Origin: Thiohalophilus sp.
Lineage (GTDB): Bacteria > Pseudomonadota > Gammaproteobacteria > UBA6429 > Thiohalophilaceae
Assembly: GCF_034522235.1 (NCBI RefSeq)
Contig: NZ_JAXHLN010000003.1
Location: forward strand, 2,108,001-2,172,000
DNA: 64,000 bases
Reading direction: 5' to 3'
Both the position numbers and the translations under genes were made by a program. The notes below the pieces were generated by a model. That model had not been told where the DNA came from. It saw nothing but the letters and a program-made list of their open reading frames with translations, and ran no database searches. Below, piece by piece: positions 2,198 to 27,595 of this stretch (its first letter is position 1; the number at the start of each line of letters is the position of its first letter).

Positions 2198-3124
2198 CTA
2201 CAGGGCATACTCGGCGTCGTAAGGCTCCTCCCCTTCCACTACGGGCAAAGTCAGCTCATTCCCCCAATGCGACCAGCCGCCATTGTAGAGCCTCACATCC
2301 TTATACCCCAGTTTCTTGAGCTGCATATACGCCAGGCTCATGCGAAAACCATCATGGCAATAGACATAAACCCGCTTGTCTTTTGGAATGGATCGATACA
2401 GGTATGCCAGTTTTTCGTTTGAAAGCCATTTCTGGCTCTGACCGTCGGTACCCTCCAGACTGACGATATTGACAGCGCCGGGGATATGTCCGCCGCGAAC
2501 CGTATGGCGAATCACCTCGCCGGTGTACATATCCTGCGGGCGGGCATCCAGCAACACCACATCGGGATCACGGCGCGAGAGAACATCTTCATAAACATCT
2601 TCCCATTCCACGAAAAGTCGCGGATTGGCGGGTTTGAGTGTCACATTGCCTGGATTGACTTTGGCTTTGTCCTTGCTCAGCTCATTAAATGCCGTCCATT
2701 CGATGGTCCCGCCTTGCAGGATTTTCACCCTGGACATATCAAAACCGTACAGCTCGAGCAGAAAATAGACTCTGGAGGCCAACGCCGTGCGCGAATCGTC
2801 GTAGATAACCACCCGCGAGTCGTTATTCACGCCCCAGCCACGCAATGTTGACTGAAAATCGGCTTTTGAGGGAAACCGCATCAGGGGAACCGCACGATTG
2901 TCACCCAGGTCCTTGAAACGCTGCACCTGTACCGCCCCGGGAATGTGGCCTACCGTATAATAACGATGCGGGTGATAACGCACCTCCAGCAAGACCATAT
3001 CCGGATCGTCGATTTTTGATTCAAGCCAGACCGAATCGACCAGAAAGTCGCGTTCGGCATGAGAAAGCGAGGCCAATGCGAAAAGCAAAACACCGAGCAT
3101 TAAACGAGCACCGCCAGAAAGCAT
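2198..3124 (-). CDS. Exported two-domain sulfurtransferase (rhodanese)
   Basis: Thiosulfate sulfurtransferase-like protein of 308 aa with a cleavable signal peptide (about residues 1-23, cleavage after SHA), so it should act in the periplasm. Two rhodanese domains are visible, at about 30-145 and 165-300. The catalytic cysteine is Cys256 in the C-terminal domain, in the loop CHDGFR. The N-terminal domain has Asp at the equivalent point (YDDSRT, about residue 110) and is presumably structural, as in other tandem rhodaneses. It probably moves sulfane sulfur between thiosulfate or a persulfide and an acceptor, which fits the SoxXA-type protein encoded nearby. The exact donor and acceptor cannot be told from sequence. 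Confidence 0.9.
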   Translation of the reverse strand: MLSGGARLMLGVLLFALASLSHAERDFLVDSVWLESKIDDPDMVLLEVRYHPHRYYTVGHIPGAVQVQRFKDLGDNRAVPLMRFPSKADFQSTLRGWGVNNDSRVVIYDDSRTALASRVYFLLELYGFDMSRVKILQGGTIEWTAFNELSKDKAKVNPGNVTLKPANPRLFVEWEDVYEDVLSRRDPDVVLLDARPQDMYTGEVIRHTVRGGHIPGAVNIVSLEGTDGQSQKWLSNEKLAYLYRSIPKDKRVYVYCHDGFRMSLAYMQLKKLGYKDVRLYNGGWSHWGNELTLPVVEGEEPYDAEYAL

Positions 3125-3601: not shown

Positions 3602-4975
3602 CTACACACCGTTTCCGGATTCCCGGGGCAGCCGAATGACGATTTCCAGCCCGCCTTTCGGGTGGTTACGCAGTGTCATCTCGCCCCCATGGGAATCGAC
3701 AATATTCCGGGCAATTGAAAGCCCCAGACCGACCCCGCCCGTTTCGCGCGAACGGGATTTTTCGACGCGATAGAAAGGTTCTGTAACATGTTGCAGTTGT
3801 GCCTCCGGTATCCCCGGCCCCGAATCGACCACACGCAGGACCAGACATCCCGGTTCATCGTGAACCGACACCCGGGCCTCATAACCATAGTTAACCGCAT
3901 TATCAATCAGGTTCTCCATGCATCGGCGAAATGCGCTGAAGTTGACCGGATAGGGATCGGCCGATCCCTCCACGGTAATTTTCTGCCCCATCTCTTCGCG
4001 ATCATGCTGGATTGTCTCGAGCAGGGCCACGATATCGAGCGGCTCTCTTTGTTCGCTGGAATCGACATCGCGTACAAAATCGAGCGTTGAGATGGCAAGT
4101 TCTTGCATTTGATCGATATCTCGCTCAAATTTGTTTCTTAATTCATCATCCTCAATCTGCTGGCTACGCAGACGTAAGCGTGTAATGGGCGTCCTGAGAT
4201 CATGTGAAATCGCCGCAAGAAGGTGCTCGCGGTCGCGCATCATATGTAACAGATGGGTCTGCATGACATTAAACGCTGATGCCGCGTCACGTACCTCGCG
4301 TGGCCCCTCTTCCGGCAAGGGCGGCCGTTGCAGGTCACTGCGAAGCTTGATAGCGGCATGGGAAAGCATTCTGAGCGGTTTCGTGAGCCAGCGTACGGCA
4401 AACCAGGACAGCAGGACCACGGGAATCAACAATACGATGAGTGTCAGCAAAAGCCGTTTTGGAACCGCGTAGGGTTCAACGCCCAGTCGGTGATCGAAAC
4501 GTACCCAGCTACCGTCATCAAGCTGAACCCAGGCGGTAAACGCGCCATCGAAGTCCCCGTCATTGACGGAACTGCCGTCTGTATTGGCATCACGGCGGTA
4601 ATAATCGGACATACTGACGTGTGTTTTTCTTGATCCCACCAGCGCATTATCAAGTAGATTTTTAATATGTTGTGAATGGTCGGTTACCGCCGGATTGGCT
4701 GTACCATGCTTTACCGGTTCGGCGTTTTCCAGGGTAATATGAAGCGAGGGTGTGTTCATCACCGACAGAATGTACTCCCGATCACCCGGTCGGAGTGTTT
4801 CAAGCGCCTGGACAATACTGGCGATTCGCTGGGTCGCGTAAATTCCGCCGGCCTGGTACAGCGTCTCGCCGCGATGACTGAGCAAAATCAACCCGGCTAC
4901 GAGCTGTGCAACCAGCAGGCCACTCAGCAGAATAAGCATCAGGCGCCCGGCCAGGGTCGCAGGCCATCGCACCAT
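3602..4975 (-). CDS. EnvZ-type sensor histidine kinase
   Basis: Two-component sensor kinase of 457 aa. Membrane segments lie at about residues 11-32 and 174-194 and flank a periplasmic domain of about 140 residues. A HAMP linker follows, then a HisKA box with phospho-acceptor His258 (SHDLRTPITRL), and the ATPase domain with N box (NLIDNAVNYG), G1 (DSGPGIPE) and G2 (GGVGLGLSIARNI). Its ATG overlaps the stop codon of the response-regulator gene by one base (TAATG), so the pair is translationally coupled. The signal is unknown. The porin and SoxXA genes start divergently just upstream and are the obvious candidate targets. Confidence 0.93.
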   Translation of the reverse strand: MVRWPATLAGRLMLILLSGLLVAQLVAGLILLSHRGETLYQAGGIYATQRIASIVQALETLRPGDREYILSVMNTPSLHITLENAEPVKHGTANPAVTDHSQHIKNLLDNALVGSRKTHVSMSDYYRRDANTDGSSVNDGDFDGAFTAWVQLDDGSWVRFDHRLGVEPYAVPKRLLLTLIVLLIPVVLLSWFAVRWLTKPLRMLSHAAIKLRSDLQRPPLPEEGPREVRDAASAFNVMQTHLLHMMRDREHLLAAISHDLRTPITRLRLRSQQIEDDELRNKFERDIDQMQELAISTLDFVRDVDSSEQREPLDIVALLETIQHDREEMGQKITVEGSADPYPVNFSAFRRCMENLIDNAVNYGYEARVSVHDEPGCLVLRVVDSGPGIPEAQLQHVTEPFYRVEKSRSRETGGVGLGLSIARNIVDSHGGEMTLRNHPKGGLEIVIRLPRESGNGV

Positions 4976-5700
4976 TAATCGTATTCCTGTTCCACTTTGG
5001 CAACCAGCATGTAACCTTCATTGCGAATGGTTTTGATAATTCGGGGATCATGGCCCGTATCATTCAGGCGCCGTCTGAGTCGGCTGATCTGGACATCTAT
5101 CGAGCGATCGAACGGTCCCGCCTCGCGTCCACAGGTTATATCGAGCAGTTGATCACGGCTCAGGACACGATGGGGATGCGTCATAAACACCGAAAGCAGC
5201 CGGAATTCGGCACTGGACAGTGGCACAACCACACCTTCGTGTGACTGCAACCTGCGCAGATAAAGATCCAGTATCCAGCCGGCAAAATGAAAGCGGACAG
5301 GTTCGTTCTGTTCCGAATCCTGCGCGTGATGAACCCGCCGCAACACCGCGCGCACCCTGGCAAGCAATTCGCGAACGCTGAACGGCTTGACCAGATAATC
5401 ATCGGCGCCGGTTTCCAGCCCGGCCACGCGATCCACCTCCTCGGCCAGCGCCGTCAGCATAATGATCGGGATATCGTGTTTTGCGCGCAATTCGCGGCAC
5501 ATCGACAGGCCGTCTTCCCCGGGCAACATGATATCCAGAAGAATCAGATCAAACGGCTGCTGCTCGAACAGCAACCGCGCGGACTGGCAATCATGTGCCA
5601 TATGAGGAGAAAAGTCATTGCGAGACAAATAATTACCCAGCAGCTCACAGATCTCGGGATCGTCGTCCACAATCAGTATCTGCTTGTGTGATTCAGTCAT
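4975..5700 (-). CDS. OmpR-family response regulator
   Basis: DNA-binding response regulator of 241 aa counted from the ATG at 5700 (MTESHKQILIVDDDPE). An in-frame start 23 codons upstream would add residues unlike the family. The receiver domain has the acidic pair in VDDDPE, phospho-acceptor Asp56 (LILLDIMLPG) and the conserved lysine in LVKPF. The C-terminal half is an OmpR/PhoB winged helix (RSIDVQISRLRRRL, TIRNEGYML). It partners with the EnvZ-type kinase immediately downstream. The 244-bp divergent spacer to the porin gene would hold its likely target promoter, but I could not pick out a convincing direct-repeat operator. Confidence 0.93.
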   Translation of the reverse strand: MTESHKQILIVDDDPEICELLGNYLSRNDFSPHMAHDCQSARLLFEQQPFDLILLDIMLPGEDGLSMCRELRAKHDIPIIMLTALAEEVDRVAGLETGADDYLVKPFSVRELLARVRAVLRRVHHAQDSEQNEPVRFHFAGWILDLYLRRLQSHEGVVVPLSSAEFRLLSVFMTHPHRVLSRDQLLDITCGREAGPFDRSIDVQISRLRRRLNDTGHDPRIIKTIRNEGYMLVAKVEQEYD

Positions 5701-5944
5701 GGTCGGACCAATCGGGCGCTCGCTCTTTATATATTGTACGGGCGTACAACTTATTAAGAATACATCCATTTTTTCCCGGATTAAAGCCCGGATTTACACG
5801 CTGAAACAATTTGATACAAAACTCTCTCTCCCGGAAATACCCGGGTTACATGGTCATGGCCTGATCGACAACATCAGCCGTCCGGGCTGCTGGCATGGGA
5901 AGTATGGGGACCCATGACATCGCAATATAAAAGGGGAGAGAGCC

Positions 5945-7222
5945 ATGTATCACTCAACATTACGAAAAGTCACCTGCCTGCTGGTTTGCTGTATGGCGAT
6001 CGGCGATGTCGCCGCGGATCAGTCGGAAGGCACTTACCTGCATAGAGAATCCGATGCGTTCTGGCTGCTGGCCGGCCCGCATGCGAGAAAATTCGGACCG
6101 GGACAAAAATTCAAAAACAGGTTGTTCCTCAAACCTGTTTATACTGATTCCGAGATAGAGGCCAACAACAGTTCACTCGAGCTAAAAAATGCCCGCTTCG
6201 CCCTGTGGGGCGCGTTGTCCGACAACACGCTGGCGATGCTGCGGTTGAATTTCGACGGCTTCAATGACCGCTTCGGTCCCCCCACCGGCGATGCCACGAC
6301 CAACAACGGTCTCAAGCGGGTCACTGAAAATACTGTTGCCGATGCGTGGATCGAATACAGCTTTAATCGACATCTTCGTGTCAGGGCCGGCCAGGATGTG
6401 GTTCCGTATGGCCTGAACATGCGCACCCCGGTGGCGCTGATGAGTTTCAACGACCGGCCCGTCTGGACACGCCAGGTGTTCGCCAGAACAAGGCTGATTC
6501 GCGATATGCAGCTCCAGGCATTCGGGCAAAACGAATCAGGCAACTTGCTGTATGCCGTGGGAATTCTTCAGGGAACCGGTATCGGGGGTTCGCTGAGCGA
6601 GAGTGGAAGCGGTCCGCTTGAGTTTCGTCTTGCCAACGACAATAACGACAAGAAAGATATCGCCGCCCGCCTGGTCTGGGCCACACCGGTTCAGGGACTG
6701 AGCCTCGGTGCCTCTTATTATAAAGGCTTTCAGGGTTACAACGGTGATCCGGCCAGCAACTATCTGGCCACGGGCGGCATCACCGATGAAAAACACTGGG
6801 GCGTGGATCTGCGCTACCAGCACGGACCGCTCTGGGTTACCGCCGAATACAATCACTCCGAGATCGATCAGATGATCGTCCCGCAAAGTAGCGGCACCCT
6901 GATCCGAAGCGGCAAGGGTGAAATCGACGACTGGTACGTCGCCATGCGTTATGACGGGTTTTCCAAACGGTTCTCGCCCAAGATCCGCTACGAGCAGTTC
7001 GATACCAGCAGCGAAAGCGGTGCCATGGGGGATCCCGATCGGATACGCGGGTTCCTGCCGCCGGGTACCGAAACCACCGTGGGTATCAATTTCCGCCTAC
7101 CGACCCGGGCCCGTCCGATCAAGAATGAAATTGGCGTGGAATACACATTGTACGACGAGAAAAATGCCGCCTCCGATGCGGACAACGATCTTGTCGCCCT
7201 GTATTGGAAAGTATTGTATTAA
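5945..7222 (+). CDS. Outer-membrane porin, phosphate-selective porin O/P-like
   Basis: Predicted outer-membrane beta-barrel of 425 aa with a signal peptide ending near VAADQ (about residues 1-24). The body alternates hydrophobic and polar residues with many aromatic pairs and ends DLVALYWKVLY, an aromatic-terminated final strand. The fold and motifs, such as ARFALWGAL early and a drawn-out YNHSEID strand, resemble OprO/OprP-type porins. The start has a good ribosome site (GGGGAGAG). It lies 21 bp upstream of the SoxXA fusion gene and is almost surely co-transcribed. It may therefore let a sulfur anion such as thiosulfate into the periplasm, which is inference. Confidence 0.85.
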   Translation: MYHSTLRKVTCLLVCCMAIGDVAADQSEGTYLHRESDAFWLLAGPHARKFGPGQKFKNRLFLKPVYTDSEIEANNSSLELKNARFALWGALSDNTLAMLRLNFDGFNDRFGPPTGDATTNNGLKRVTENTVADAWIEYSFNRHLRVRAGQDVVPYGLNMRTPVALMSFNDRPVWTRQVFARTRLIRDMQLQAFGQNESGNLLYAVGILQGTGIGGSLSESGSGPLEFRLANDNNDKKDIAARLVWATPVQGLSLGASYYKGFQGYNGDPASNYLATGGITDEKHWGVDLRYQHGPLWVTAEYNHSEIDQMIVPQSSGTLIRSGKGEIDDWYVAMRYDGFSKRFSPKIRYEQFDTSSESGAMGDPDRIRGFLPPGTETTVGINFRLPTRARPIKNEIGVEYTLYDEKNAASDADNDLVALYWKVLY

Positions 7223-7243: not shown

Positions 7244-8581
7244 ATGATTCATAATCCAGTCAACGACAAATCACCAGGCGGTCGCCGTTGCGTGACCGAC
7301 AAGGGGGCAAGACGCATACGCATGTGGCGAATAGCCGGTCTTACCGGCCTGTGTCTGTTTCTCGGGGCACTCGTTGCCCCGAACCTCGAGCAAGCCTTCG
7401 CCCAGTCCCAACATCAGGGTGGGGGACATGGCGGTGGACACGGCGGCGGTCACGGTGGCGGTCACGGCATGGTTGCTGAGGAAGCCAAACATTTCCCCTC
7501 CGTTGCCGACGATGAAACCAAATCAATCCGTCCACCCCAGCGCAAGGCCGCCCCTGACATGGCGGGTAATCCCGAGATTGGCAAGCAGCTGGCCTACAAC
7601 CGTTCCAGGGGACGCTGCCTGAGCTGTCACGTGCTCGGTCCCGACAGCACCCAGCCGGGGAATGTCGGGCCCAATCTCAGCGATTACGGCAACTCGGAAC
7701 GGTCCCGGGCGTATACCTTTCAACATATCTGGGATGCGCGGGTGCACAATCGGCAGTCGTTGATGCCGCCGTTCGGCACCAACGAATTGCTGAGCGCCCA
7801 TGAAGTGGCGCATATCACCGCCTACCTGGCGACATTGACCCGGCCCGTTGACGATCCCGACAGAACAAGCTCGCCGCGCCGAAGCCGGCGGGAGAAGGTG
7901 TTCATCGCCGGTGTGGATCTGACCGACGCCGACGACTATATCGAGGCGGGCAAGGCGGCATTCCATCAGGTGGGTAACAACGGCCGTTCCTGCACCTCGT
8001 GCCATAGCGCCGGTAAGGATGGTCCGGATCTCGAGGGTGTGGCTGCCACCTACCCGAAATTCGATGCCGACGCCGGACGGATCGTTGCCATTCAGGATCG
8101 CATCAACCGGTGCCGTGACACCCACATGAACAGCGATCCGTTAAAACGCGGCAGTGCCCGGTTGAATGTATTGACCAGCTATATCAAGTATCTGAGTCGC
8201 GATGTCCCCATCCAGGTGGCCACCGACGGGCCGGCCGCGCAGGCCATCGAGCGGGGCGAGCAGCGCTTCCGGCGCAAGGCCGGTCAGCTCAACTTCTCCT
8301 GCGCAGACTGCCATACGGCGGCGAAGGGCCAATGGCTACGCGGACAACCGCTGAATTCGCTGGATAACACCGCCGGGGACTGGCCGAAACACTTTATCGC
8401 CGGCCACGACCTGGGGCAGATCAGCCTGCAACAGCGGATTCGCCATTGCCAGGTCGTCACCCGTACCTTTCCGCTGGATCTGGGCTCGCGGGAATATACC
8501 GAGATGGAACTCTATCTCACCGCTCTCGCCAACGGCGAGCCCGTATGGGCACCGACAAAATCGCGATTACGGGGGCAATAA
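7244..8581 (+). CDS. SoxX-SoxA fusion, tri-haem c-type cytochrome
   Basis: Predicted periplasmic cytochrome of 445 aa that joins both subunits of SoxXA, which oxidatively couples thiosulfate to the SoxYZ carrier. After a signal segment (about 27-53) and a Gly/His tract (57-75) comes a SoxX-like domain with haem site C125-x-x-C-H129 and the ligand motif SLMPPFG (Met174). A SoxA-like half follows, with haem sites C250/C253/H254 and C353/C356/H357, a conserved Cys290, and Cys402 (RIRHCQVVTR) at the place of the SoxA active-site cysteine. The C-terminus (ALANGEPVWAPTKSR) is typical of SoxA. SoxX and SoxA are normally separate polypeptides. No soxB, soxYZ or soxCD lies in the window. The ATG has a GGAG ribosome site 8 bases upstream. 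Confidence 0.88.
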   Translation: MIHNPVNDKSPGGRRCVTDKGARRIRMWRIAGLTGLCLFLGALVAPNLEQAFAQSQHQGGGHGGGHGGGHGGGHGMVAEEAKHFPSVADDETKSIRPPQRKAAPDMAGNPEIGKQLAYNRSRGRCLSCHVLGPDSTQPGNVGPNLSDYGNSERSRAYTFQHIWDARVHNRQSLMPPFGTNELLSAHEVAHITAYLATLTRPVDDPDRTSSPRRSRREKVFIAGVDLTDADDYIEAGKAAFHQVGNNGRSCTSCHSAGKDGPDLEGVAATYPKFDADAGRIVAIQDRINRCRDTHMNSDPLKRGSARLNVLTSYIKYLSRDVPIQVATDGPAAQAIERGEQRFRRKAGQLNFSCADCHTAAKGQWLRGQPLNSLDNTAGDWPKHFIAGHDLGQISLQQRIRHCQVVTRTFPLDLGSREYTEMELYLTALANGEPVWAPTKSRLRGQ

Positions 8582-8606
8582 CGTCAAAAGAAGGATGTAG
8601 CAAACA

Positions 8607-8632
8607 GGCAGGCAGCGGAAACGCTGCCTGCC
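8607..8632. terminator. Hairpin between convergent SoxXA and MBL genes
   Basis: A perfect 11-bp stem, GGCAGGCAGCG with loop GAAA and its complement, sits in the 55-bp gap between two convergent genes. The T-tracts on either side are short, so it may be a weak bidirectional terminator or an mRNA-stabilising hairpin. Confidence 0.55.
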
Positions 8633-8636
8633 TCTA

Positions 8637-9578
8637 TTACTCCCATTCCATTTGCTGATAGACCTGCTGGGCGTTGCGTCCCTTGAGCACGTCGTAATCT
8701 ACAAGATACTCGAAACGGGACTGATCCAGGGTACCGATCCGGGTAATGTCTCCGCCGCTGTCCATGAACGTCCCCACCTTCTCGCGCAGGAAAACCAGAT
8801 AGTCCAGGGTATCCCGGCGCGCGAGGCTCAGGTCGGTGGCCGGACCGTGACCGGGGACCACCACTTTCGGCTCCAACGCCGCCATCGCGTTAAAGGCCTC
8901 GATCCAGCCCTGACTATCGGAATAGGGTAAAACTCCCAACATCCGCTCCACGAACACCACATCGCCGGCAAATACGATACGCTCACCGGGCAGCCAGACA
9001 AGGGTATCGCCGGGGGTATGGGCCGGGCCAACCTTGCGAAGCTCGAAGGTCACGCCGCCAAACGTCAACATGTGTTTGTCGGTGAAGGTCTCATCGGCGT
9101 ACACGGCTTCGGTACCGTCCAATGCCGCTTTGCCCATCAGGTTACCCAGCATAAACATCTGGTCCTGCAGGCGAGCCTTCTGATCGGCCACCGCCGCCGC
9201 ACTGGCGATAATGCGCGCGCCCCGTTCCTTGAAGTAGCCGTTACCCAGCCAGCGGTGATCCTGCCCGCCGGTGTTGATCACGAGCTTCACCGGCTGGTCG
9301 GTAACCTGTTTGATCAGTGTCTTGATGGCGGCCGCACCTTGATAACTGCCGCCGGAATCGATCAGCACCACGCCATCTTTCGTCACCACGAAGCCAAAGG
9401 TGGCGTTGTTACCCAGGTTCTCCGGCGTGCGATTGCCGAAGGGGCCGACGATGGCATAAACGTGATCATTGACCTGCTGCAGGCGCAATGGAGCCTCGTT
9501 GGCCTGTACCCCCGTGCCGCCAAGTGCGAGCAGACAAAACAGCCCGACAACACGCCCCATCCGATTGAAGACTTTCAT
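8637..9578 (-). CDS. Exported metallo-beta-lactamase-fold protein with altered metal motif
   Basis: Protein of 313 aa with a signal peptide (about 1-26) and a metallo-beta-lactamase fold. Later metal ligands of the family are present: His187 (GPAHTPGD), Asp206 (FAGDVVF) and His244 (PGHGP). The signature HxHxDH is not: the equivalent stretch reads NTGGQDHRWLGN (102-113). At least one metal site must therefore be rebuilt or lost. Related exported MBL proteins (SoxH-like) accompany sulfur-oxidation gene sets, and this one is encoded tail to tail with the SoxXA fusion and upstream of neither cytochrome c'. The substrate is unknown. Confidence 0.8.
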   Translation of the reverse strand: MKVFNRMGRVVGLFCLLALGGTGVQANEAPLRLQQVNDHVYAIVGPFGNRTPENLGNNATFGFVVTKDGVVLIDSGGSYQGAAAIKTLIKQVTDQPVKLVINTGGQDHRWLGNGYFKERGARIIASAAAVADQKARLQDQMFMLGNLMGKAALDGTEAVYADETFTDKHMLTFGGVTFELRKVGPAHTPGDTLVWLPGERIVFAGDVVFVERMLGVLPYSDSQGWIEAFNAMAALEPKVVVPGHGPATDLSLARRDTLDYLVFLREKVGTFMDSGGDITRIGTLDQSRFEYLVDYDVLKGRNAQQVYQQMEWE

Positions 9579-9588
9579 ATACTCTCCC

Positions 9589-10086
9589 TCATTGATAACG
9601 AAACGCGCTGTGACAGGCCACGCACGATCGGGTGACCCGCGACAGCGCCGCCAGTGCCGGTTTCACATCATCCTCCACGCCGGCATCTCTGGCCACCACG
9701 GCAAAGCGGCTGGCGGCGCGATGCATCTCGGTACCCAGTTGGCGCATCTTTTCGGGCATGAACTGCCCCACTTCATGGGCGCCGTGCGATTCGAGCGAGG
9801 TCATCCCCAGCCGCTGCTCGGCGATCTCGCCGGCCTGGTCGAACCGGCCCTCGGCCAGGGCCGTCTGAATCTCCTGCAGGCTGAGCAGATGATCGCGCAT
9901 GTTGGCCAGGGTGTGGATACGCATCTGCTGTGGCAAGGTTACCAGCGCACGGTTGTCCGTGACCTCCGCGTCGCCTTCGTGCTGATCATGCATGGTGTGC
10001 TGGTGTGTCGGCTCGGCCCGGGCAGCGAGCATCACGACGGCCAGCAGACCGGCGGCCATCAACCCCCATCGGATTGGTTTGAACAT
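9589..10086 (-). CDS. Cytochrome c'-like monohaem protein 1
   Basis: Periplasmic cytochrome of 165 aa from the ATG at 10086. The longer frame upstream lacks a signal-like start, whereas MFKPIRWGLMAAGLL begins a proper signal peptide. After a His-rich stretch (HQHTMHDQHE) the rest is predicted all-helical and carries a single haem site at the extreme C-terminus (C155-VA-C158-H159), the layout of four-helix-bundle cytochromes c'. Such proteins bind NO or act as small electron carriers. A palindrome, ATGAT-N4-ATCAT, sits about 60 bp upstream of the start. A similar cytochrome is encoded just upstream. Confidence 0.85.
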   Translation of the reverse strand: MFKPIRWGLMAAGLLAVVMLAARAEPTHQHTMHDQHEGDAEVTDNRALVTLPQQMRIHTLANMRDHLLSLQEIQTALAEGRFDQAGEIAEQRLGMTSLESHGAHEVGQFMPEKMRQLGTEMHRAASRFAVVARDAGVEDDVKPALAALSRVTRSCVACHSAFRYQ

Positions 10087-10143
10087 CGGATCCACTCCTG
10101 TCACATTTTCCCGGTATGCTAGCCGGCAGCCGGGACAGCGGGT

Positions 10144-10157
10144 ATGATTCAAATCAT
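10144..10157. promoter_or_regulatory. Candidate Crp/Fnr-type operator, copy 1
   Basis: ATGATTCAAATCAT is a perfect ATGAT-N4-ATCAT palindrome, one substitution per half-site away from the FNR consensus TTGAT-N4-ATCAA. It lies 58-71 bp upstream of the first cytochrome c' start. A second copy is found beside the Crp/Fnr-type gene. Confidence 0.6.
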
Positions 10158-10170
10158 ATATCGCTGCAGT

Positions 10171-10752
10171 TCAGGGTTGGGATTCTGCATTCGTCGAATA
10201 CTGATAGTCCGGGATCCGGCGCTGCGGCACAGGAATCGCATCCGGCAGGCTGACCGGTGCCGGTGTCGTGTACTGCCGTTCGTTTGGCCACTCCACCATT
10301 CGTACCGCCGAATGGCACCCCATGCAGGACTGCACGGCCTCACTCATGCGCCGCAGGACTTGCTGGCGATCGCCCTGTTCGGCAGCCTCGCGGATCGCTG
10401 GCATCTTCTGGCCGTGAAAGTCGGTAGCCATGACGGCGAAGGTCTTGCTTCCGCGGCGCCGGGAAAATTTCTCCGTCTTGTCCGTATAACTCAAATCATT
10501 GGCGATGCGAGCGACTTGCGCCAGGTCATCCCGGGACAGGGCATCCAGCATGCGGCCCAGCGCGCCCAGATTATCCTGGTTCATTTTGTGCAGCAGCTTG
10601 TCCCTTGTGGTGAACGGGATGGGCAGCAGTTCACGCGTATCCCCGGGCATTGCCGCACCGGGTTTTGCCGCCGTCTCCGCCGCGGCCGGGTATCCCGTGA
10701 TAATCGCTGCCGCCAGGGTCAACACTACCAATTCCGCGAATCTCAGCTTCAT
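10171..10752 (-). CDS. Cytochrome c'-like monohaem protein 2
   Basis: Second small periplasmic cytochrome, 193 aa from the ATG at 10752 (MKLRFAELVVLTLAAAI, signal peptide). The mature part is helical with one haem site, C143-MG-C146-H147, followed by a proline-rich C-terminal tail of about 45 residues that the first copy lacks. The order haem site, then SAVRM, parallels SAFRY in the neighbour, so the two are probably ancient duplicates. It is transcribed toward the first cytochrome c' gene, with 84 bp between them, and away from the Crp/Fnr-type gene. The shared spacer holds an ATGAT-N4-ATCAT palindrome. Confidence 0.82.
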   Translation of the reverse strand: MKLRFAELVVLTLAAAIITGYPAAAETAAKPGAAMPGDTRELLPIPFTTRDKLLHKMNQDNLGALGRMLDALSRDDLAQVARIANDLSYTDKTEKFSRRRGSKTFAVMATDFHGQKMPAIREAAEQGDRQQVLRRMSEAVQSCMGCHSAVRMVEWPNERQYTTPAPVSLPDAIPVPQRRIPDYQYSTNAESQP

Positions 10753-10828
10753 AATACCTATCCTCTTGTGGCAGTTACGACGCACCTGATCGACTAAAAT
10801 ACCGTCTCATGGCCGCGTATGTATGTGT

Positions 10829-12152: not shown

Positions 12153-13121
12153 TCAGGAAACAAAAAAGGCGGCGATATAGCGTCCGGCGATCAGTAGCAT
12201 GAAGACGCCCAGCATCAGCTTGAGGGCGGATTGGGGGATGTATTTCTGCGCCCGAGCGCCAAGGTACATGCCGGCGAGGCCCCCGAGGCCGAACAGCACG
12301 CCCAGCGCCCAGTCAGGCTGGGTGGATAGTCCCGCCGGTGCAGGCAACACGCTGTAAAACAACACCCCGAATACCGAGGTCAGCAAGGTAGCCGCCAGCG
12401 CCGCACCGGCCACCGTGTACACCGGCAAGCCGAACAGGGTAATGCAAAACGGCGCGATGATCGCCCCGCCGCCGATGCCATAAATGCCGCCGATGATGCC
12501 GACCACGAAGGCCAGCAATACCATCGCGGGGACACTAAATGAAAAGGACTGATCCTGATAACGGAAACACACCCGCGCAGGTGAAACCGCCAGGGTCTTC
12601 ATTGCCATTGCCGGCCCGGCAGACCGTGCCGGGCTGCCGTTACTGACACCAGCACGGACCCGGCGCCAGGACATGAGGTCCGCGAAGACACGGTAGGCGA
12701 TATACAGCAGCACGCCGCCGACAAACAGCTTGAACGCCACCGGATCGGGCAGGTAGCGGACACGCACAACATAGCCGATGGCGATCCCGGGCAGGGTGCC
12801 GAGGGCGATTGCCGCCGTCAGCGACCAGAGCACGCGCCCTTCGCGCAGATAGCGGTACACACCACCGGGGATGGCAACCAGGTTGAACACCATATTCGTA
12901 GCGCTGACCGAGGGGGCGGTGTAATGCAGCACACTCATCTGAAACGGCAGCAGCAAAAAGGCCCCGGAAATGCCCACCATGGAGGTGAAAAAGCTGATGA
13001 CAAACGCCACCAACGGCGGCAGCCACAGTGCAGTCTGCACACCGGAGACGGGAAAGGTATAGATCAGGCTGTCGATAGCATCACTCCTTGCTCGATCGGC
13101 TTGCACTGAATACCAGCGCAA
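12153..13121 (-). CDS. TauE/SafE-family permease (sulfite exporter-like) 1
   Basis: Integral membrane protein of up to 322 aa with about eight hydrophobic helices and the two-fold repeat of the TSUP family. Each half begins with a glycine-rich segment (FFTSMVGISGAFLLLPF in the first half, VGIIGGIYGIGGGAIIAPF in the second). Family members export sulfite, sulfoacetate or other sulfur anions. Encoded next to the sulfur island, it could remove sulfite. A hydrophilic loop of about 40 residues separates the halves. The first 25 residues are uncertain because a later start is possible. Confidence 0.85.
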   Translation of the reverse strand: MRWYSVQADRARSDAIDSLIYTFPVSGVQTALWLPPLVAFVISFFTSMVGISGAFLLLPFQMSVLHYTAPSVSATNMVFNLVAIPGGVYRYLREGRVLWSLTAAIALGTLPGIAIGYVVRVRYLPDPVAFKLFVGGVLLYIAYRVFADLMSWRRVRAGVSNGSPARSAGPAMAMKTLAVSPARVCFRYQDQSFSFSVPAMVLLAFVVGIIGGIYGIGGGAIIAPFCITLFGLPVYTVAGAALAATLLTSVFGVLFYSVLPAPAGLSTQPDWALGVLFGLGGLAGMYLGARAQKYIPQSALKLMLGVFMLLIAGRYIAAFFVS

Positions 13122-25869: not shown

Positions 25870-26173
25870 AAAGCGCGCAAGGTTAAACCAGATGCCCGGG
25901 CGGTGCAACGCCAATCCGGCGCCATGTTCTCGCCCGGGTTCTCGCGGTAACGGGCGCCCCGCCAATATCCTTTCAAAATTAAAGGTTAAAGCAGCGCCAA
26001 TGGGGACTGGGTGTCATTTGGTGAGTGATCGAACAATATTAGAATGTTATAATATTTATGTTTTTTATTCGGTGTGAGATACCGCACAGACGGACTTACG
26101 GTTTTTAAATTTTACTCCAGACTTGAGATCATAAAACGATAACCAGTTCACAGAATTGGAGGGTCAATACGTA

Positions 26174-27595
26174 ATGCAACGACGGGTTATTACTGCCGTG
26201 TTGGGCGCGGCCGCCCTGGGGGGCGTGGTGGCACTCAATGCCTGCACACCCCAACGCAGTGCCCTGGAGCAGGTCCTGAACAGCGGAGAGTTGCGTGTAT
26301 ACACCCGTTATGCACCGACCACGTATTACCAGAGTCCGGAGGGACCTGCCGGTCTCGAATATGAGCTGGCCCGAAGCTTTGCCGATCGACTCGGGGTACG
26401 TCTGAAACTGGTTGTCGCCGAGAATCTTGAAGAGATCTTCGCGGGACTGCGCAAAGGGCGCGCCGATCTGGCCGCTGCCGGTCTGACCGTCACCGATCAA
26501 CACCAGCAACATATTCGTTTTGCCCCGGCTTACCAGTCCATCACCCAGCAGCTGATTTATCGCCACAACAGTACCCCCAGACCCCGGAATCTCGATGAGC
26601 TTGACCAGGGGCATATCGAGGTGGTTGCCGACAGCAGTCACGCCGAACAGTTGCGTCAACTGCAAGAATCGCACGCCGATCTCCAGTGGCACGAAAACGC
26701 CAGGACAGACAGCACCGAACTACTGACGCTGGTCGCCGAGAACATCGTTGACTATACCGTCGCCGATTCCAATGAGATGGCGGTAAATCGACGTTACTTC
26801 CCCGAACTGCGCATCGCGTTCGACATCTCGGATCCGAAAAATCTTGCCTGGGCAATGCCACAAAGCGAGGACACCTCGCTCTATAACGAGGTCGAGCATT
26901 TCTTTGAGGGCTTGCGCGAATCCGGTGAACTCACCCATCTGATCAAGCAGCACTACGAATATGTGCGCAACTACAACTACTTCAGTACGCCGGTCTTCAT
27001 GCATCACGTACGCAGCCGCATGCCGAACTATCGCCGCTTATTCAAGGCAGCCGCCGATCAGACCGGTCTTGACTGGCGCTTGATCGCAGCTGTTTCTTAT
27101 CAGGAATCCCATTGGGACCCCCTGGCGGTCTCCCCCACCGGCGTTCGGGGTTTGATGATGTTAACCAACAGAACCGCCAGTCAACTGGGCGTGCTGGATC
27201 GCACCGATCCCGAAGAAAGCGTTCAGGGTGGGGCACGCTATTTACAGGGACTGCACAAAAAATTCGACGCTATTCCCGAAGACGATCGGATGTGGTTCAG
27301 TCTGGCCGCCTATAATGTCGGCTTTGGTCATGTCCGCGATGTCCAGAAGATTACCCGCCAGCGTGGCGGAAATCCAAAAAAATGGACCGACGTGAAAGCC
27401 AACCTGCCCTTGCTAACCCAGCCAAAATGGTATCGCCAGACCCGCTACGGCTACGCTCGCGGTAATGAACCGGTCAAATACGTTGATAATATTCGCAGTT
27501 ATTACGATATTCTGCGCTGGCATATTCGCCAGGACAGTCCGGCACCCGGCAACACGCTAAATTCGATTCTCGCTTATTCATCACCGGTTTTATAA
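26174..27595 (+). CDS. mltF: Membrane-bound lytic murein transglycosylase F
   Basis: Peptidoglycan-cleaving lipoprotein of 473 aa from the ATG at 26174, preceded by GGAGG at a spacing of about 11. A TTG seven codons upstream overlaps that ribosome site and is not used. The lipobox is LNAC. The N-terminal half is a solute-binding-protein-like regulatory domain (LRVYTRYAPTTYYQSPEGPAG). The C-terminal half is an SLT goose-lysozyme domain with catalytic Glu in AVSYQESHWDPLAVS and the motif GVRGLMMLT. The domain order is that of MltF, and the enzyme should act at the outer-membrane inner face. Confidence 0.94.
   Translation: MQRRVITAVLGAAALGGVVALNACTPQRSALEQVLNSGELRVYTRYAPTTYYQSPEGPAGLEYELARSFADRLGVRLKLVVAENLEEIFAGLRKGRADLAAAGLTVTDQHQQHIRFAPAYQSITQQLIYRHNSTPRPRNLDELDQGHIEVVADSSHAEQLRQLQESHADLQWHENARTDSTELLTLVAENIVDYTVADSNEMAVNRRYFPELRIAFDISDPKNLAWAMPQSEDTSLYNEVEHFFEGLRESGELTHLIKQHYEYVRNYNYFSTPVFMHHVRSRMPNYRRLFKAAADQTGLDWRLIAAVSYQESHWDPLAVSPTGVRGLMMLTNRTASQLGVLDRTDPEESVQGGARYLQGLHKKFDAIPEDDRMWFSLAAYNVGFGHVRDVQKITRQRGGNPKKWTDVKANLPLLTQPKWYRQTRYGYARGNEPVKYVDNIRSYYDILRWHIRQDSPAPGNTLNSILAYSSPVL

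Follow-up and report, generated by a model that had tools for sequence, protein, structure and literature searches.

In the window, by which we mean the whole stretch of 64,000 nucleotides of Thiohalophilus DNA that was analysed, a single open reading frame encodes a SoxX domain followed by a SoxA domain (Table 1). The product is rather probably an accessory, one-chain, periplasmic tri-haem SoxXA, which would load thiosulfate or an analogue oxidatively onto SoxYZ encoded elsewhere. This reading is supported by scores above the cut-offs for both domains, by SoxA motifs (both CxxCH, Arg398 and Cys402) that show no variation among the 12 fused proteins aligned, and by the presence of SoxY and SoxB in the host genomes.

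Table 1 Features of the fused SoxXA gene and its surroundings (positions in the window)
Feature	Coordinates	Strand	Details
Two-domain rhodanese	2198..3124	-	67.5% identity to the Sulfuricella plasmid pSCD ars-operon rhodanese
Sensor histidine kinase, divergent from porin	3602..4975	-	
Response regulator, divergent from porin	4975..5769	-	Response_reg, Trans_reg_C
Porin, phosphate-selective O/P family	5945..7222	+	PF07396, 35.8 bits, cut-off 20.9
Fused SoxXA gene	7244..8581	+	445 aa, no internal stop, three CxxCH
Gly/His-rich N-terminal stretch, about residues 45-75	7376..7468	+	Predicted disordered
SoxX domain, residues 106-200	7559..7843	+	NCBIfam, PDB-structure match
SoxA domain, residues 228-441	7925..8566	+	NCBIfam, phmmer, PDB-structure match
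GC-rich hairpin between convergent SoxXA and hydrolase genes	8606..8633	.	Fold of 8586-8640: -26.9 kcal/mol
Metallo-beta-lactamase-fold hydrolase	8637..9578	-	55-57% identity to plasmid homologues
Mono-haem c'-like cytochrome	9589..10152	-	PF01322, 23.3 bits, under cut-off 26.5
Mono-haem c'-like cytochrome	10171..10785	-	PF01322, 20.9 bits, under cut-off

The preliminary description of this DNA had proposed that SoxX and SoxA are joined in one polypeptide, and the curated NCBI equivalog models bear this out. Residues 122-198 matched SoxX (TIGR04485) with 88.6 bits against a cut-off of 61, and residues 230-438 matched SoxA (TIGR04484) with 168.9 bits against a cut-off of 110, both within one frame whose ATG has a GGAG a short way 5' of it. 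SoxX is recognised by a single CxxCH together with a distal methionine ligand; the SoxX part has its CxxCH at residue 125 and, within an MPPFG motif, Met174 as the putative ligand. In the SoxA part, CxxCH motifs begin at residues 250 and 353, the first of them paired with Cys290 as its putative ligand in the manner of di-haem SoxA, and the active-site Cys402 is preceded four residues earlier by Arg398. The residue numbers first given, those of Cys290 and Cys402 included, proved correct. Four other assemblies share the same fused frame (L013, L014, L095 of G018 and L112 of G377) at 49-53% identity, so that a frameshift artefact is very unlikely and the alternative of two separate genes was rejected. 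The hairpin 3' of the gene is absent from the terminator-scan list, and the scan for promoters and terminators gave no result exceeding shuffles.

The C-terminal half had been described as SoxA-like, and neither sequence nor predicted fold places it nearer to TsdA. In phmmer searches against the PDB, SoxA 1h31 was matched at 2.3e-27 over residues 232-438 and SoxA 2c1d at 1.4e-22 in the C-terminal half, compared with 8.9e-7 for TsdA 4v2k over residues 238-359; residues 121-202 matched SoxX 3oa8_B at 5e-8. An AlphaFold2 model, built without haems from 12 sequences (mean pLDDT 70.8, pTM 0.69; pLDDT below 50 at residues 45-75 and 207-225), aligned to SoxA 1h31_A with a Z-score of 22.7 over 218 residues and to SoxX 1h32_B with 11.0 over 102 residues, as against 11.9 over 102 residues for TsdA. 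A TsdA identity of this half was rejected, SoxA being far stronger in both comparisons. What the fused protein has in common with TsdA is the first SoxA-TsdA cytochrome domain (PF21342), but the match is much weaker and spans about half of the SoxA part. Both halves resemble in fold the heterodimeric tri-haem SoxXA of Rhodovulum sulfidophilum (1h31/1h32) and Paracoccus pantotrophus (2c1d); those proteins consist of two chains, whereas the window protein has a linker and a tail predicted to be disordered.

As an accessory SoxXA, the protein would be exported and loaded with haem. Thiosulfate or a close analogue would be oxidised onto Cys402, the predicted ligand of the second SoxA haem, and the sulfur adduct would then be handed to the C-terminal cysteine of a SoxY encoded elsewhere in the genome. 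Electrons would leave through haem 1 (putatively ligated by His254/Cys290) and the SoxX haem (putatively His129/Met174) to a small cytochrome, perhaps a c'-like cytochrome from a neighbouring gene. The available sections of PMC4423706 present a Cys-S-thiosulfonate mechanism for this family and an arginine that is invariant in TsdA and SoxA.

Relatives were found with peptides of the query itself, and the sample is biased for this reason: 106 stretches encoded a relative, and among the best 80 of these 106, six loci (L013-L018) encode the two domains in a single frame. Candidates for alignment and trees were sought with profiles made from 12 fused proteins, and after 16 near-duplicate loci and 12 repeated or cut loci had been removed by hand the trees contained 88 SoxA and 77 SoxX rows. 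The fused proteins formed two groups, clade I (the window protein, L013, L014, L095 and L107/G377), with a SoxA-tree support of 100/99, and clade II (seven rows), with 100/100. The SoxX tree, from which L178 is missing, recovered the clades at 100/96 and 95/81 and joined them at 98/90, and the SoxA tree joined them weakly, at 93/50. AU tests rejected neither the placement of clade I with di-haem SoxA (p 0.469) nor that of clade II with them (p 0.501, likelihood 0.07 higher). A single fusion event behind both clades is favoured. Ancestry from mono-haem SoxA was rejected, both fused clades grouping with 13 separate di-haem SoxA at 100/99.

The two clades share their domain order and differ in detail. 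Cys290 is kept in all five clade-I proteins, whereas all seven clade-II proteins have His at this position, which in other di-haem SoxA is occupied by the Cys ligand of haem 1. Ahead of the SoxX domain we counted 6-11 His in clade I (5/5) and 0-2 in clade II (7/7, although only five residues are countable in row L108), while separate SoxX proteins (n=53) have at most three. The His-rich tail, which clade II lacks, may have a metal role. Copper has been claimed in SoxAX; PMC4423706, in the sections available, disputes the copper model on the ground that a plausible copper site is seen in none of the structures. Five residues past the active-site Cys stands an Arg that occurs in 13/13 di-haem and 62/63 mono-haem separate SoxA. 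The window protein retains it, but in two of seven clade-II and three of five clade-I proteins it is replaced, and these replacements count against an accessory SoxXA. Within clade II, the Bradyrhizobium tropiciagri protein (L018:9710-10918) is without the SoxX CxxCH and therefore may hold two haems only, and the match over the gene of L113 (G172) contains one in-frame TGA; its start is uncertain because the frame taken begins past that codon. One genome, G018, carries both fused clades (L095 and L111) plus a separate SoxA.

Three of 40 genomes searched in the window's family carry clade I (G000, the host, with G014 and G018), and the order-level search drew the same 40. A draw of 369 genomes from the class added one clade-I genome, G377, and two with clade II, G172 and G321; in the phylum draw (398 genomes) the window's own genome was the sole clade-I case. 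G014 and G784, the genome of L014, are one assembly. The fused gene is absent from the same-genus genome G038, whose syntenic contig stops about where the window gene 26156-27595 lies, and in the viral contigs searched no relative was confirmed. Clade I probably represents a new, accessory branch of fused SoxXA.

The Sox complement was determined in 13 genome entries (12 distinct genomes), which include G038. SoxY, SoxB and SoxA were found in all 13, SoxB being over its cut-off in 12. The host has three SoxY loci, all of which pass the true-SoxY model, one SoxB and two further SoxXA pairs; its sox loci are a soxX-Y-Z-A cluster whose SoxA is mono-haem, a soxX-A pair whose SoxA is di-haem, and a further two soxYZ pairs. 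A host without SoxYZ and SoxB could thus be rejected. Two of the soxYZ pairs encode identical SoxZ (L115:6177-6491 and L118:4935-5249), the result of a recent duplication. The original observation that no soxYZ or soxB lies near the fused gene holds, the nearest SoxY being ~94 kb and SoxB, on the same contig, ~1.05 Mb away. What had been drawn from it, a Sox-like pathway of different composition, is weakened because the genome contains SoxY, SoxB and other SoxXA pairs; such a pathway is possible in that the fused gene is extra and unlinked in all five clade-I genomes and stands here in an arsenic island.

Each of these five genomes has a further SoxA over the cut-off (SoxA totals: G000 3, G014 2, G018 3, G377 2, G783 3), and the fused gene lies on a separate contig from soxY and soxB or, in G000, at least 94 kb from them, with the fragmentation of the MAGs limiting statements of absence. 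Both points argue against the accessory SoxXA. An alternative is a stand-alone thiol-conjugating or electron-relaying cytochrome that would join two small sulfur species without SoxYZ, TsdA-like in effect. Such a cytochrome would fit the lack of linkage, the loss of the Arg after the active Cys in three of five clade-I proteins, and the presence of a c'-like cytochrome gene near the fusion both here and in L013, but it is unlikely, since the C-terminal half is SoxA throughout and its TsdA likeness ends near residue 324-359. A redundant or decaying copy carried along with the accreted island would agree with the two other SoxXA pairs and with the absence from G038; that every haem and active-site motif is kept and that the gene has been retained in five genomes at 49-53% identity makes this quite improbable. 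Returning to the accessory SoxXA, clade II offers a precedent. In G172, G321 and G787 no SoxA match other than this fusion was found, and in Alphaproteobacteria it adjoins sox genes: in Indioceanicola profundi (NZ_CP030127, L178; order XA-Y-Z-B-C, all five over cut-off), in B. tropiciagri (L018; Y-Z-XA-B) and in a Reyranellaceae MAG (L015; beside soxY, soxZ and soxB). A fused protein can therefore serve ordinary Sox.

The neighbours of the window gene are arsenic rather than sox genes, which is a further point against the accessory reading. The porin stop is 21 nt from the start of the fused gene, and the two are probably co-transcribed; on the other side, 55 bp separate the SoxXA stop from the hydrolase gene. 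In L013 a 36% homologue of the c'-like cytochrome 10171-10785, likewise under the Pfam cut-off, directly precedes the fused gene. Plasmid searches with the porin or this cytochrome gave no match at the limits set. A TauE/SafE exporter is encoded nearby (12153-13121); a Pseudosulfitobacter plasmid has a TauE gene near AioBA, which the exporter of the window did not match at 1e-6.

To the left of the window lies an arsenic island (G000:C3 ~2084000-2108000; L121, L120), a large part of which matches Sulfuricella pSCD. It encodes AioA, 9.1 kb upstream of the fused gene (TIGR02693, 1252 bits, over cut-off), AioB (TIGR02694, 190.7 bits, over cut-off), an ArrA-like molybdoenzyme with partners (428.9 bits, far under the cut-off of 1600), MoaA, ArsC, ACR3, ArsM, an ArsP permease, thioredoxin, OsmC and ArsR. 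It is flanked by two sets of a PhnD-type binding protein, a kinase and an NtrC-type regulator, which we take to be AioXSR-like. Across the region, 15 of 106 predicted frames match the ars stretch of pSCD, the rhodanese among them, a count that includes one antisense frame and two ArsC sharing one target. The hydrolase is 57% identical to a Pseudosulfitobacter plasmid member of an ArsR-permease-thioredoxin-MBL-OsmC cassette near AioBA and 55% identical to a Hoeflea member of the same cassette; a third plasmid homologue, from Pannonibacter, stands beside other genes (two of three in arsenic cassettes). Weaker homologues (36-41%) occur in Paracoccus and Limimaricola, that of P. denitrificans ~7 kb from soxA, presumably where SoxH would be. 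With relatives of both the rhodanese and the hydrolase in arsenic clusters, the fused gene is bracketed by arsenic-type genes. This arsenic setting, seen in one genome, is suggestive.

It raises the idea that the clade-I branch was recruited here as a dedicated enzyme that strips sulfur from thioarsenate, oxidatively passing the sulfur of monothioarsenate to SoxYZ or another thiol and freeing arsenate. Working with the island's arsenite oxidase, rhodanese and hydrolase, this enzyme, from a branch marked by a metal-binding-like His-rich tail, would couple periplasmic arsenic and sulfur oxidation. AioA with AioB upstream, the pSCD-like rhodanese between them and the fused gene, and the adjacent hydrolase with its cassette relatives all fit, and the available text of PMC6620896 cites Edwardson et al. 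2014 as proposing Sox for thioarsenate because it resembles thiosulfate. According to the same text, however, sox genes in the stronger arsenite oxidiser stayed stable or fell slightly. AioA was found in one of the 13 genome entries searched and one of the five distinct clade-I genomes, and no arsenic gene was recognised by eye in the stretches surrounding the L013, L110 and L112 clade-I genes (two proteins were HMM-scanned); the contig of L095 is only 3.3 kb long. Arsenic as a general partner of clade I is accordingly unsupported, and the thioarsenate enzyme, a reading from gene context, is unlikely.

The fusion of SoxX to SoxA is in itself already published. As described in the accessible parts of the two reports, Halorhodospira has a tri-haem protein with SoxX joined to the N-terminal end of SoxA (PMC8877833), and a fused SoxAX occurs in Beggiatoaceae (PMC11172852). 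By these descriptions both have SoxX and SoxA in one chain, as here; the Halorhodospira fusion, however, is the organism's SoxXA, and no separate SoxX is described for the Beggiatoaceae, whereas the window protein, with its His-rich tail, is an extra copy additional to separate SoxXA pairs. In the open-licence PMC literature we found neither a description of a His-rich SoxXA nor one of a fused SoxXA within an arsenic island.

In a one-chain SoxXA the two parts have a fixed stoichiometry, and a single protein needs to be expressed; SoxAX is described in the available sections of PMC4423706 as highly recalcitrant to mechanistic analysis. The accessory branch also poses a question, namely why a sulfur oxidiser should maintain a second SoxXA of different construction. 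The neighbouring arsenite oxidase, finally, makes this a concrete gene with which the proposal that Sox oxidises thioarsenates, as cited in the accessible text of PMC6620896, may be tested.
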